NCBI RefSeq assembly: GCF_014639275.1
Contig: NZ_BMFW01000014.1
Location: 1-64,000, forward strand
Source: Arthrobacter liuii
Lineage (GTDB): Bacteria; Actinomycetota; Actinomycetes; Actinomycetales; Micrococcaceae
Direction: 5' to 3'
DNA length: 64,000 nt
In this document: positions 33,729-37,640 of the stretch, piece by piece
Numbering within the stretch: position 1 is the stretch's first letter
How the letters are laid out: each line of letters begins with the position of its first letter
Notes under the pieces: generated by a model
The model's database searches: none
The model's input: only the letters and a program-made list of their open reading frames with translations
What the model was told of the DNA's origin: nothing
Translations under genes and position numbers: made by a program

Positions 33729-35033
33729 CTAGTCCTTTGCCCTTCGCCGTGGTGTGGAAGAAAATACAGAGGATCTCAGTTTGCGCTGGTCGGGTGCACA
33801 AACCAGGTCGCGGATCGCCCGCCGCAGCGCCGACTCAGGCGCAGCCTCGAGCAGCAGCGATCCGGCCAGGAGTGCAGCGTCGGCAGCAGCTGGGTCATAG
33901 GGCAGGAACGTCTTGAGCCCGGAAGCGGGGCCATACCTTTCCCACGCATCCCGCAGTTGGCGCTCAGGGGCCCTTCCCACGGATGAGGAACGCACCTTGT
34001 TCATGACGACAGTGGGCGTCGACTGCGGGACTGCGCCTTCCAGCTCGGCAAGCGCACGCACCATCCGGGGCACACCGACCGGATCGGCAGCGCCCACGGC
34101 ATAGACCGTATCCGCCAGTTCCAGCGGACGCAGTGTCGCCGCGTTCCGCCGCGGAGCCACGGTGTCGAAGCTCAGTTCCTCATCCGCCTCAAGGCAAAAA
34201 CCGGTGTCCACCACCACAACGTCGGCAATCTGCCGCGCCCGCTCAAGGACCAGCCCAACGGCAGTGGCACGGAGCTCGGTCCATCGATCTGCGCGGGTTA
34301 TGCCCGTCAGCACCCGGAAGGTACCGGACGCCGTGGCGACAGTGGCGGCCACCTTCCGGAGGGCGTCCGCGTCCAGGAGACCCTGGTCAGCAAGCCTGCA
34401 TGCCTGCGCCAGGCCGGCCGACTCGTCCAGGAGACCCAATACTGCGGCGATGCTGGCGCCATACGTGTCGGCGTCTACCAGCAAAACATCCCGGCCATCG
34501 GAGGCCATCTCCCCCGCAATATTCACCGCGATTGTTGTCCTCCCGGGGGACCCCGCCGGACCCCAGACAACGATAAGCTCTCCGGTTGGGTCAGCCTCCG
34601 CCTCAGGTTCCGGTTGCACGGGATCCGTGGTCAGAGCAGCCCCGGTGTCAGCGGGCGCGCTCAGGTTGGCCGGACGGACCGCGCCGGTCAGCTGTGCCAC
34701 CGCGTCGGCAATCCTGTCAGACAGCTCCGCCGACTCAACCCCCGTCAAGGCAGAGGCGACACGTATTTTGCGCAGCCTGGCTGCCTCCTCTGCGCTGTCC
34801 GTCAGGGCGATGATTGCCACCCCAACTGCTCCCAGGCGGTCGACGAGGGAAGCAGTTAACCCCTCGGACCCTTCGGCCACCACGGCCGCCCTCGCCAGTC
34901 CGCTCTGGCAGGCCGCGAGAAGCTCCGGAAGTTCAGCACACCGTCGAACCACCGTGACCGGACCGTGCAGACGTTCAAGGCCGCCCACCAGGTCCTCGCG
35001 GCTCTGGCCCACGGTGACGACCGGGATACTCAT
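33729..35033 (-). CDS. MinD/CpaE-like P-loop protein with degenerate Walker A
   Basis: A 434-residue protein. Residues 1-115 look like a receiver-type or CpaE N-terminal domain, and a proline/acid-rich linker follows (about 118-150). Then comes a MinD/ParA-type ATPase domain. Its P-loop reads GPAGSPGRTT at 158-167: both lysines of the deviant KGGxGKTT motif are replaced (A160 and R165). The LLVDADTYGAS segment is kept at 184-194. CpaE proteins position Flp/Tad pilus machinery. The ATG at 35033 overlaps the SAF gene stop (ATGA). No CpaF or TadBC genes are in the window, so a pilus role is uncertain. Confidence 0.78.
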   Translation of the reverse strand: MSIPVVTVGQSREDLVGGLERLHGPVTVVRRCAELPELLAACQSGLARAAVVAEGSEGLTASLVDRLGAVGVAIIALTDSAEEAARLRKIRVASALTGVESAELSDRIADAVAQLTGAVRPANLSAPADTGAALTTDPVQPEPEAEADPTGELIVVWGPAGSPGRTTIAVNIAGEMASDGRDVLLVDADTYGASIAAVLGLLDESAGLAQACRLADQGLLDADALRKVAATVATASGTFRVLTGITRADRWTELRATAVGLVLERARQIADVVVVDTGFCLEADEELSFDTVAPRRNAATLRPLELADTVYAVGAADPVGVPRMVRALAELEGAVPQSTPTVVMNKVRSSSVGRAPERQLRDAWERYGPASGLKTFLPYDPAAADAALLAGSLLLEAAPESALRRAIRDLVCAPDQRKLRSSVFSSTPRRRAKD

Positions 35034-35671
35034 CGTGCGCCGCCCGGATTCCACACCACGGATATCTTCGCCTCATTGGCCTGGGCACCCAGCAACGCGG
35101 GCATCTGCTTGTCCTCCACAAGTACCATCAGCACAGTGGTCTTTGACGATCCAAGGGCGGTGGACCCGGTGGTGACCTCTGCAATTTCCGCTCCGGGAAG
35201 GATGAGCTTCGGCTCGCTGAATCCGTTCTTTGCATCCGGCTGGGCCACCCAGACGTCCACCCGGGCACCGGCGACTGCCTGCGACGGCAAGGTCTGCCCG
35301 GTACTGAGGGCTACAGGCTTCCGGTCCAACTGGTCCACCTCACCAAGGCTTGCCCTGGGAACCAACTGGTCCTTTGCGATCCTTTGCATGGCGACAACAT
35401 CCTGGGGCAACCCGGCCTCCACGGTGATGTAGTGCTGCTCGGTGTCGCCCAGCCGGACCTTGGCGCGGACCACGTTCTCCAGCGTCAGGCGCTCACCAAC
35501 AGCAATGCCGTCCCGTGCCGCATATACCTCGGTGGTACGGTCCGCACTGCCGACAAGAAAGGTGACACCCGCGACGGATACCAGGACGAGGAGAACGCCT
35601 ACCAGCAGCCGCGGGTCCTTCCACGATGGACGTTTCAGCCGTGGTGCACTGGCACTTGAATCAGGAACCAT
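35030..35671 (-). CDS. SAF-domain membrane-anchored protein (CpaB-like)
   Basis: A 213-residue protein with one N-terminal membrane segment (about 22-40), an SAF domain (about 48-110) and a beta-rich C-terminal domain. This is the layout of CpaB/RcpC proteins that work in Flp pilus assembly, but shorter. The ATG is preceded by a strong GGGGGAG. It is translationally coupled to the MinD/CpaE-like gene and divergent from the small HTH gene, sharing its phased-repeat intergenic region. Confidence 0.8.
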   Translation of the reverse strand: MVPDSSASAPRLKRPSWKDPRLLVGVLLVLVSVAGVTFLVGSADRTTEVYAARDGIAVGERLTLENVVRAKVRLGDTEQHYITVEAGLPQDVVAMQRIAKDQLVPRASLGEVDQLDRKPVALSTGQTLPSQAVAGARVDVWVAQPDAKNGFSEPKLILPGAEIAEVTTGSTALGSSKTTVLMVLVEDKQMPALLGAQANEAKISVVWNPGGAR

Positions 35672-35760
35672 ACCGTTCTCCCCCTAGGTATACCGGACCT
35701 GTCCGCTGTGGCCGGACTCCTCATTGTTACCGCAAGGCCCCGCGAACAAAAGTCATTTAT

Positions 35761-35820
35761 CCAAACGTGGGCAATCTGTGGAAAACGGGCACAAACTGCG
35801 CCATGTGATGGCAAAATGGT
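35761..35820 (+). repeat. Six 10-bp-phased CAAAC-like repeats before the HTH gene
   Basis: Cut into successive 10-base blocks from 35761, the sequence places CAAAC, CAATC, AAAAC, CAAAC, CATGT and CAAAA at the same offset (starting 35762, 35772, 35782, 35792, 35802, 35812). Four of six units match CAAAC with at most one change and one is clearly degenerate. The array ends just before the ATG at 35824. A small GCCAT-GTG-ATGGC palindrome (35800-35812) overlaps it. Confidence 0.6.
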
Positions 35821-35823
35821 TTT

Positions 35824-36039
35824 ATGCCAAGGTTCCTCACTCTCGCGGACGTCGCTGAGCAGCTCCAAATCAACTCCCCTGCCGCGTACGCCTTGGTCCG
35901 CAGCGGTGAGCTGAAGGCCATCCAAGTGGGCGGCCGCGGGCAATGGCGTGTTGAAGAGAAGATGCTGGAGCAGTACATCGAGGAACGCTATGCCGAAGCC
36001 AGCCGCGTGATCCAGGAATCACGCTCCAAGTCCGTTTGA
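35824..36039 (+). CDS. Small MerR/excisionase-like HTH DNA-binding protein
   Basis: A 71-residue protein that is essentially one winged helix-turn-helix of the excisionase/BldC (HTH_17) type. LTLADVAEQLQI and SPAAYALVRSGELKAIQVG form the helices, GQWRV follows as the wing, and a short acidic/basic tail completes it. Such proteins bind DNA and often self-associate. No clear Shine-Dalgarno precedes the ATG. It stands between the SAF/CpaE-like pair and the LysM/DUF6459 genes. Its upstream region carries phased CAAAC repeats also found before the LysM gene, so autoregulation and control of that gene are plausible. Confidence 0.82.
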   Translation: MPRFLTLADVAEQLQINSPAAYALVRSGELKAIQVGGRGQWRVEEKMLEQYIEERYAEASRVIQESRSKSV

Positions 36040-36044
36040 CGCTG

Positions 36045-36614
36045 TTAGGTTCCGCCGGCTTTGTGCGACCTGATCAGCGCCAGCGCAGAGAACGGGATGG
36101 CTGAAACCTGGCCAACGCTTTGGCTCCTCCGCACCTCGCCGGGAACAACAGCAGCCAGGTCAATATAGTCCCTGCCAACACGGTCGATGACGCCGACCAA
36201 GCGTGCCGTTCCGGTTCGGCCGCCGATCGTCACCGAGAGCTCGGCCCGGTCGCGGGCGAGGCCCCTCAGGGCATGGGAAAGTCCGATGGACCGGCGGACC
36301 ACTGAATTCTCGGCCCACGCATGCCTGCCCAGGCCGACGTAGCGTGCAACGGCCGTATAAGGAATAAGCACCTGGTGCCGATCTTCGTCCAGGACCAGCG
36401 CATCAGCTCCTGCGTGCGTCAGTTCCCCGTGCGCTGATTCGCCGCACAGGAGGTGGACGCCGATCCGGTATCCGACGACGGCGCGAAGCCTGTGTTCGAG
36501 CGGCAGGTTCACCATCTCGACCCGTGTCCGCTCATTGACCTCGGTGTTTAAGGCCAGCCGGTCGGCCTCCGCGAGTTGGCTTTCCATGTCGTTGAAGAGT
36601 GCATCCCAGCGCAT
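36045..36614 (-). CDS. Conserved actinobacterial protein, unknown function
   Basis: A 189-residue soluble protein with no membrane segment or signal. The N-terminal part (about 1-35) is helical. The rest is predominantly beta-like, with repeated short strands in GRTGTARLVGVIDRVG and DYIDLAAVV, suggesting an Sm- or barrel-like fold. I do not recognise a named family with certainty. It converges on the HTH gene, with 5 bp between stops, and diverges from the LysM gene across the second phased-repeat array. Confidence 0.7.
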   Translation of the reverse strand: MRWDALFNDMESQLAEADRLALNTEVNERTRVEMVNLPLEHRLRAVVGYRIGVHLLCGESAHGELTHAGADALVLDEDRHQVLIPYTAVARYVGLGRHAWAENSVVRRSIGLSHALRGLARDRAELSVTIGGRTGTARLVGVIDRVGRDYIDLAAVVPGEVRRSQSVGQVSAIPFSALALIRSHKAGGT

Positions 36615-36697
36615 TCCGCAAGCGTAGGGTTCCTTGTCCGGCCCGTCAACGCGCCATCTTTTTCATTCCAACGTCTGGACAAACGACCGAAGAGCAG

Positions 36698-36744
36698 TTC
36701 AAATTGATTCAATACGCATCAAACCGCATCAAACAACATCAAAG
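36698..36744 (+). repeat. Five 10-bp-phased TCAAA repeats before the LysM gene
   Basis: The tetramer TCAA occurs at 36699, 36709, 36719, 36729 and 36739, exactly 10 bp apart. Extended units read TTCAAAT, TTCAATA, ATCAAAC, ATCAAAC and ATCAAAG. The last unit touches the AAAGGTGG ribosome site of the LysM gene. This array resembles the one before the small HTH gene (shared core CAAAC). Confidence 0.75.
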
Positions 36745-36752
36745 GTGGCATA

Positions 36753-37640
36753 ATGAGATACTCCGGCGAGAAGCAATGGGCCGATGCCGCCATGGTGCTG
36801 GCCTTGCTGGTGCTTGGCATCTTGCTCACCCTGCTCGGAGCGGGCCTGATGGCACAGTGGCAGGAGTCAGCTGCCCGTCACCAGGACTCCTCGGTAGAGG
36901 CCATCCTGGCGGCGGTCGCGACGGCAGCCGGCACCGGCCTTCTGCTCTGGTGGGTTCTTTCCTTCCTGGGCGCGGGAGCGTCCGTCCTCTTGGATCGCGT
37001 GGGACGGCGCCGGGCTGCGTCGGCCGCACGAAGGCTCTCACCGGCGTTCATGCAGCGGGCGGTGGTTGCGGCACTTTCGATACAGCTGGTCACAGGGGCC
37101 GCGGCAAATGCCGTGATGCCCGCGCCCGGACCAGAGTGGACGCCAACCCAGGGGCATTCCTCGTCGGCTCCGTCCTTCCCAGCCACTCCCGACGACGCTC
37201 CGACGCCCTACGCGACCGAAACTCGACGCGGCATGCAGGTGCCACGCCAACTGGTTCCGGCCGAAGAACCATCAGCCAGCCGTGTTGGCCCGTCGCCGGC
37301 CTGGAGCCCCACCACCCAGCCATCCGCCACGGCGCTCAATCCCGGATGGCAGCCTGCTGGCCTTGTGGTGGAGCCCGGCCTGCTGGCCGCACCGGGAACC
37401 AGGGCCATGGCCGGTCCGCAGCAGGTTACCCCGGCAAAGGGCAGCCAAGCAGGGGCAGTGACCGTACTCGCTGGCGACACGCTGTGGGACATCGTATCGG
37501 CCCACTTGGGGCCGGAAGCATCGGACGTGGACATAGCCCTCGAATGGCCGCGGTGGTATGCAGCGAACCGCGAACTGATCGGCGGGAGCCCAGATGTCCT
37601 GCTTCCGGGCCAGATCCTCCAGGCACCCACAGCACCCTAG
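36753..37640 (+). CDS. Membrane-anchored LysM-domain protein
   Basis: A 295-residue protein with three hydrophobic segments (about 13-33, 49-73 and 100-120). A long proline/serine/alanine-rich extracytoplasmic linker follows (about 122-235), then a C-terminal LysM domain (about 238-292) with AGDTLWDIVSAHLGP and LLPGQILQAP. It should bind peptidoglycan N-acetylglucosamine from a membrane anchor. The ATG has AAAGGTGG upstream. The promoter region contains phased TCAAA repeats. It is followed 167 bp later by the DUF6459 gene on the same strand. Confidence 0.85.
   Translation: MRYSGEKQWADAAMVLALLVLGILLTLLGAGLMAQWQESAARHQDSSVEAILAAVATAAGTGLLLWWVLSFLGAGASVLLDRVGRRRAASAARRLSPAFMQRAVVAALSIQLVTGAAANAVMPAPGPEWTPTQGHSSSAPSFPATPDDAPTPYATETRRGMQVPRQLVPAEEPSASRVGPSPAWSPTTQPSATALNPGWQPAGLVVEPGLLAAPGTRAMAGPQQVTPAKGSQAGAVTVLAGDTLWDIVSAHLGPEASDVDIALEWPRWYAANRELIGGSPDVLLPGQILQAPTAP

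Follow-up and report, generated by a model that had tools for sequence, protein, structure and literature searches.

The question raised by this locus is whether a small helix-turn-helix (HTH) protein lines up along two arrays of short repeats that flank its gene, and which of the neighbouring genes would be controlled in that way. In the analysed stretch of Arthrobacter liuii DNA (the window, 64,000 nucleotides from a genome of 4.8 Mb), the HTH gene (35824..36039, + strand, encoding a single winged-helix protein of 71 amino acids) lies between a divergent gene for a SAF/FlgA-like protein (35030..35671, - strand) and g189 (36045..36614, - strand, encoding a predicted tandem Sm-like protein of 189 amino acids), which is itself divergent from lysM (36753..37640, + strand, encoding a LysM-type protein of 295 amino acids). 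A gene for a CpaE-like ATPase was found behind the SAF gene and one for SecA beyond lysM. The SAF/FlgA-like protein was assigned from synteny and a match to TIGR03170 below its cut-off (E 0.0035), and had no match in Pfam. The g189 protein of the window, also placed by synteny, had no Pfam match at E 0.1, and 18 relatives showed only scattered weak matches. The lysM product of the window, likewise placed by synteny, matched LysM weakly and below the cut-offs (PF01476, E 0.1; NCBIfam PRK11198, E 1.2e-4); the syntenic products of two loci from the order (L362 and L363) matched PF01476 above the cut-off (E 1.2e-7 and 2.4e-9, respectively).

The nearest named relatives of the HTH protein were found in Pseudarthrobacter and Arthrobacter, and a match to it was present in 388 of the 395 genomes of the family (f1, which we took to be the Micrococcaceae). 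Of the 110 family loci that we oriented, 76 belong to the genus of the window (the genus loci); a match to the SAF protein was found in all 110, to g189 in 109 and to the LysM-type protein in 100 (plain tblastn). The gene order of the HTH neighbourhood was maintained in the loci of the family, the order and the class.

All repeat coordinates given in the first-pass annotation proved correct when the sequence was rechecked. Upstream of the HTH gene, CAAAC (35762), CAATC (35772), AAAAC (35782), CAAAC (35792), CATGT (35802) and CAAAA (35812) follow each other at 10-bp steps (array 1), and upstream of lysM five TCAA(A) units start at 36699, 36709, 36719, 36729 and 36739 (array 2, 36699..36744, + strand), the last three of which, (CA)TCAAAC-like, form the conserved core. 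With CAAAC at a 10-bp step as the scoring pattern, array 1 reached 24/30 and array 2 reached 21/25, scores that were unmatched elsewhere on both strands of the window, except that the six-unit score was also reached by array 2 when counted from 36680. Neither score was reached in any of 60 simulated 64-kb sequences (one strand, first-order Markov). When the 10-bp self-match was taken without a motif, array 2 was the best of the window (27/40) and array 1 was unremarkable (18/40). A chance origin of the arrays was ruled out by the simulation together with the conservation described below.

Array 2 was found conserved far beyond the genus. In 109 family loci, pairs of TCAAA were spaced 10 bp apart in 153 cases, 20 bp in 87, 30 bp in 40 and 40 bp in 29, the next spacing occurring 5 times; base shuffles of the same loci gave a mean of 0.04 pairs at 10 bp. 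A CAAA pair at 10 bp was present in 104 of these loci and a CAAA triple in 79, and the longer TCAAA was found as a pair in 94 and as a triple in 53. In the profile of the 76 genus loci, for which each sequence was anchored on its own best match and which is thus biased towards the motif, three consecutive TCAAA units reached 1.1-2.0 bits per column and the CA preceding the second and third units 1.2-1.8 bits, against 0.3-0.8 bits for the other spacer bases. The profile also showed moderate conservation of TGGACAAA, located at a further CAAAC (36680..36684, + strand) that is in phase with array 2.

The 10-bp step extends to more distant relatives, where the loci are the top-scoring HTH matches and not a random sample. 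All 20 order loci, which come from eight other families, carried a YAAA pair at 10 bp before the LysM gene (shuffle mean 0.07), as did 17 of the 23 class loci outside the order (shuffle mean 0.23), the remaining 6 of these 23 having no YAAA pair at 10 bp. Beyond the order the unit often read GCAAAC or GTAAAC, for instance in GCAAACGCAAGCAAACGA, and the 10-bp step was unchanged. A lack of conservation in close relatives, which the first-pass annotation had named as grounds for refutation, was clearly contradicted by array 2, whose 10-bp step is kept through the family, the order and the class. In two relatives (L101 and L103) additional TCAAA-type units at 10-bp steps were seen near the start codon of g189, immediately to its right, three of them in L101, besides the array of the LysM gene.

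We found such repeats to be nearly restricted to this one locus. The exact pair TCAAAC-N4-TCAAA has three occurrences in the home genome: two overlapping ones in array 2 and a third, elsewhere, within what reads by eye as a coding frame. Pairs with at most one mismatch occur at 20 places, versus 13 for the reversed control, so that matches with one mismatch represent background. Across the family, the exact triple was found at 99 places in 91 of the 395 genomes and the reversed pattern at 5 places. Among the matches listed, 66 of 69 places were within 1.5 kb of the HTH gene. With respect to the other 30 places we inspected 20 regions (23 places), 14 of which held the HTH gene, 5 held SAF, g189 and LysM genes without the HTH gene and 1 held none of these; the place in genome G190 was inspected separately (L353). 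In the order, CAAACNNCATCAAAC was found at 41 places in 39 of the 149 genomes (2 places for the reversed pattern): 30 within 2 kb of the HTH gene, one beside g189 (G532), 7 in family f6 away from the HTH gene and 3 elsewhere. Read by eye, the f6 place L366 belongs to the terminal part of a coding frame. L365 is a site of two units at another position in one genome, and further places were a second one in G476 and one in G446. A large regulon of sites of the array 2 type is disfavoured, as the home genome has one exact pair outside array 2, a coding match, and the scans of the family and the order lead mainly to the locus of the HTH gene and lysM.

The position of array 2 relative to the putative lysM promoter suggests what the array may do. 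A -35-like TGGACA (36676..36681, + strand), moderately conserved in the genus and overlapped by the CAAAC at 36680, precedes by 17 bp a -10-like TCAAAT (36699..36704, + strand) whose position is that of unit 1 of array 2. A promoter was recognised in 46 genus loci, and in 32 of these the first paired unit begins 14 bases after the -10; in 6 of 9 class loci it begins 2 or 12 bases after it; the pattern search recognised no -35/-10 pair in the 20 order loci. In the window, units 3-5 lie after the putative transcription start and reach the ribosome site. Since the array is mostly at or downstream of this start, a block to RNA polymerase would fit the sequence better than activation, and since it overlaps the start and the leader, repression of lysM is the likely effect. 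Array 2 is very probably a switch site for lysM, its probable target. The first-pass annotation had allowed for control of all four genes around the two arrays, a scope that has to be narrowed: a conserved array was found only at the promoter of lysM and, within the genus, at that of the HTH gene.

The HTH protein matched PF12728 (HTH_17; E 1.7e-12, 47.8 bits, cut-off 27) and TIGR01764 (excise; E 2.3e-8, 34.3 bits, cut-off 28.8). Its AlphaFold2 model (mean pLDDT 90) has a long C-terminal helix (residues 45-70). A Foldseek search with this model gave Pukovnik Xis and BldC as the closest structures, but with E above 0.001. With VIA-align, the model was matched to a phage-packaging-related protein (6hn7, Z 8.8), to BldC (6ama, Z 8.4, 2.0 A over 54 residues; 6amk, Z 8.0, rmsd 1.1 A over 51 residues) and to Pukovnik Xis (Z 7.7), with the GIsul2 excisionase, RdfS and lambda Xis lower. 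On the level of sequence, phmmer gave no match in the PDB at E of at most 1, and a profile search of the PDB returned only Pukovnik Xis (E 0.24). The HTH protein is thus predicted to fold like BldC and Xis, which are filament-forming winged helices.

Three further matches to the HTH protein are present in the home genome, one of them BldC-like. In a tree, the BldC-like rows, including this home-genome copy, were split off at 100/99 support, where the short alignment and the long branches were flagged. The HTH protein as an orthologue of BldC was ruled out by this separate clade. The analogy with BldC drawn in the first-pass annotation accordingly stands for the fold and for the motif shared by two promoters in the genus; it does not extend to membership of the BldC group, in view of the different clade and of a 10-bp YAAAC repeat versus a 9-bp AATTXXXX(C) repeat.

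We compared the presence of array 2 with that of its neighbours. In three genomes of family f19 the HTH protein has diverged and g189 is present, and no pair was found in 260 bp; in genome G536, where g189 is followed by a gene that by eye resembles an ABC transporter and not LysM, there was no pair either. Judged from these genomes, the array seems to follow lysM. In genome G542 (family f30) SAF, g189 and a two-unit array were kept and the best HTH match reached only E 3.5e-7. Five genera of the family (g11, g17, g20, g22 and g23) have no HTH gene between SAF and g189 and keep the array of lysM. The best HTH copies of these genera are located elsewhere and have diverged, and no pair was present in the 200 bp upstream of them (9 loci); judged from the tree, these displaced copies may or may not be orthologues. 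The binder in array-bearing genomes without a local HTH gene could be a diverged or missed HTH protein, or another protein. The HTH match was missing or weak in 11 family genomes, 10 of which also had no SAF and g189, so that co-loss fails to single out the HTH protein as the binder and had to be given up as a proof of that role.

Genome G353, in which an element interrupts the HTH gene, retains three CAAA units at 10-bp steps. The element (L164, 1525-6891), of about 5.4 kb, lies behind approximately codon 39 of the HTH gene. By eye it comprises two genes of the tyrosine-recombinase type and a small third one, a trio that is presumably Tn554-like. It also brings its own HTH reading frame at one end, with 60% identity to the interrupted gene.

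Array 1 had been described in the first-pass annotation as six successive units; as equal, conserved units this holds for a part of it. Units 1-4 (35762..35796, + strand; CAAAC, CAATC, AAAAC and CAAAC) are conserved in the genus: counted from the first base of TGTGGATAAC, unit-like letters were found at -15 in 66, at -5 in 56, at +5 in 69 and at +15 in 40 of the 76 genus loci, the +5 unit being part of a DnaA-box-like site itself. Unit 5 (CATGT) was a poorly conserved repeat in these 76 loci. The sixth unit, CAAAAT (35812..35817, + strand), was offset from the box by +34 in 44 and by +35 in 29 of the 76 loci, and because its spacing from the array differs by one base between loci it looks like a -10 element, probably that of the HTH gene, and not like a phase-locked unit. 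It ends six bases before the ATG, and the HTH mRNA would therefore probably be leaderless. To the left of array 1 (35740-35760 and the same region in relatives), a conserved GAACAAAAGTCA block and an ATTGTTAC block were seen by eye that resemble the -35 and -10 of the divergent SAF gene.

The DnaA-box-like site (35777..35785, - strand; TGTGGAAAA in the window, read as TTTTCCACA on the - strand) lies within array 1, and the TGTGGATAAC columns were the best conserved block of this array in the 76 genus loci. TGTGGATAA was perfect in 72 of these loci and the form TGTGGA[ACT]AA was present in all 76. TGTGGATAA is the reverse complement of the DnaA box TTATCCACA; within 4.3 kb surrounding dnaA, the home genome has three copies of this nonamer. 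The site thus has the nonamer TTATCCACA or a close variant of it, and the window copy is a variant. A perfect box (TTATCCACA or TTGTCCACA) was found within 150 bp upstream of the HTH gene in 73 of 76 genus loci, 22 of 34 other family loci, 8 of 20 order loci, 7 of 26 class loci and 2 of 9 loci with a displaced HTH gene. In 150 bp of the gap between g189 and the LysM gene, which served as the control, the counts were 0 of 76 (genus), 4 of 33 (other family), 3 of 20 (order) and 2 of 23 (class). Outside the family the excess of boxes is small, since the order and class counts come near those of this gap. The YAAA pair was found upstream of the HTH gene in 1 of 20 order and 0 of 23 class loci. Array 1, being hardly seen outside the family, looks from its distribution like a family-level addition around the DnaA-box-like site and array 2 like the older element. 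In two class loci (L333 and L343) we noticed by eye CAACC units upstream of the HTH gene that run at 10-bp steps into a CATACT- or GATACT-like -10 and that are missed by the YAAA count.

It could be argued that array 1 is mainly a DnaA site with promoter elements and that it resembles array 2 partly by coincidence. This explanation concerns array 1 only and is compatible with the main reading of array 2 as an operator. It is suggested by the conservation of the TGTGGATAAC block and the enrichment of the box over the g189-LysM gap, and by the CAAAC-type units that flank the box, which are weaker and hardly seen beyond the family. On the other hand, the four positions with unit-like letters (-15, -5, +5 and +15) are spaced by exactly 10 bp, and some family members (L026, L101, L102 and L128) have TCAAAC-like units in the position of array 1. 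From the sequence comparison we consider this explanation of array 1 a serious possibility that falls short of an even chance.

For array 2 itself, the alternatives concern the binder, the molecule on which the repeats act and the need for a binder at all. Array 2 might be a true phased operator of another regulator, such as an orthologue of BldC, another small HTH protein or a response regulator that binds direct repeats, with the HTH protein acting elsewhere. The array persists in the five genera whose HTH gene is no longer at the locus and in G542, which has no clear HTH protein; this would agree with another binder, as would the three other HTH matches of the home genome, including the BldC-like one. 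However, the array unit recurs in the promoter of the HTH gene itself (in the genus), the array is gone in the three f19 genomes where the HTH protein has diverged, and the BldC repeat (PMC5859096) is a 9-bp AATTXXXX(C) and not a 10-bp YAAAC, which makes another binder rather unlikely in our view. Alternatively, the repeats could act in RNA, with CAUCAAAC repeats in the lysM leader bound by a protein such as the g189 product. Units 3-5 are indeed downstream of the putative start and reach the ribosome site, and g189, present in the family, order and class loci, gave a model (mean pLDDT 77) that looks like a tandem Sm-like barrel protein, closest to ORF137 of Pyrobaculum spherical virus (Z 12.3 over 109 residues), with Hfq structures at about Z 7. 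Nevertheless, the exact 10-base step points to the DNA helix, the array of class loci may begin 2 bases after the -10 and would then be partly untranscribed, array 1 is upstream of the putative HTH start and the f19 genomes have g189 and no array; an action in RNA seems very unlikely. AAA tracts at a 10-bp step are the classical arrangement for intrinsic curvature, so the repeats could also be A-tracts in phase whose effect is to bend or open the DNA of the promoter, without a dedicated binder. Tracts of three bases bend weakly, however, and the flanking T, C and CA are conserved nearly as strongly as the A's in the genus profile. Moreover, the motif is confined to one strand (the 109 family loci hold 11 TTTGA and 8 GTTTG, none of them paired 5-45 bases apart), and we regard curvature as a most improbable explanation.

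The reading that we prefer is that array 2 is a helically phased direct-repeat operator with one YAAAC unit per turn, at and just downstream of the -10 of lysM. Each 10-bp unit would take up one protomer of the 71-amino-acid HTH protein; the protomers would share one orientation and stack head to tail into a short filament, as with BldC and Xis-type proteins; this row would repress lysM by blocking RNA polymerase. The array-type unit in the HTH gene's own promoter (in the genus) suggests autoregulation, possibly with an input of DnaA. Taking sequence, structural model and analogy together, we consider this combined reading moderately probable, somewhat better than even. A more far-reaching scheme would be a class-wide module in which DnaA acts at the box of the HTH promoter, the HTH filament silences the LysM gene and replication is coupled to the cell wall, with the Sm-like protein as an additional partner, perhaps at the RNA level; this scheme is speculative and we think it distinctly unlikely to hold as a whole.

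Operators for head-to-tail filaments of winged-helix proteins are known in few cases, and the consensus is loose for BldC and reportedly absent for RdfS. Text searches of open-licence PMC papers returned no description of the array 2 operator. Array 2 has an exact 10-bp step, with nearly all of its exact matches at one locus; it is maintained through the class, and its motif drifts between lineages while the step stays fixed, which makes the filament model directly testable through the number and the phase of the units. With lysM as a probable cell-wall-binding gene, the locus of these soil actinobacteria is a good test bed for small proteins that line up along DNA. It also gives the conserved group of genes for the SAF, HTH, Sm-like and LysM proteins a first functional lead, and the DnaA-box-like site raises the question of a replication-linked control of a wall protein.

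The relation of the HTH protein to known systems can be described as follows. BldC of Streptomyces binds head to tail on 9-bp direct repeats, AATTXXXX(C), at sites that vary in length, tolerate departures from the consensus and serve a regulon (PMC5859096). The HTH protein resembles it in being a single winged helix without a partner domain and in having a putative operator of direct repeats in one direction, and differs in that its putative array is a 10-bp YAAAC repeat with nearly all exact matches at one locus beside the HTH gene. With RdfS, Pukovnik Xis and lambda Xis it has the fold group in common, and RdfS covers 10 bp per molecule (PMC11963761). Those proteins serve a recombinase, whereas no integrase was found among the five HTH neighbours scanned (SAF-like, CpaE-like, g189, LysM-type and SecA), and the authors did not find a consensus motif for RdfS (PMC11963761), whereas the motif at the HTH locus is well defined. 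Within the HTH_17/excisionase family (PF12728, TIGR01764), of which the HTH protein scores above the curated cut-offs and of which the name is silent on targets, it belongs to a subgroup that in Actinomycetes is embedded in a conserved chromosomal gene order. Outside oriC, DnaA boxes are known for example from B. subtilis, where DnaA acts as a transcription factor (PMC4447404), and TTATCCACA in the HTH promoter, present in the window as the variant TTTTCCACA, is a candidate site of this kind. By analogy, the HTH protein most probably works on DNA like BldC or Xis without being BldC.
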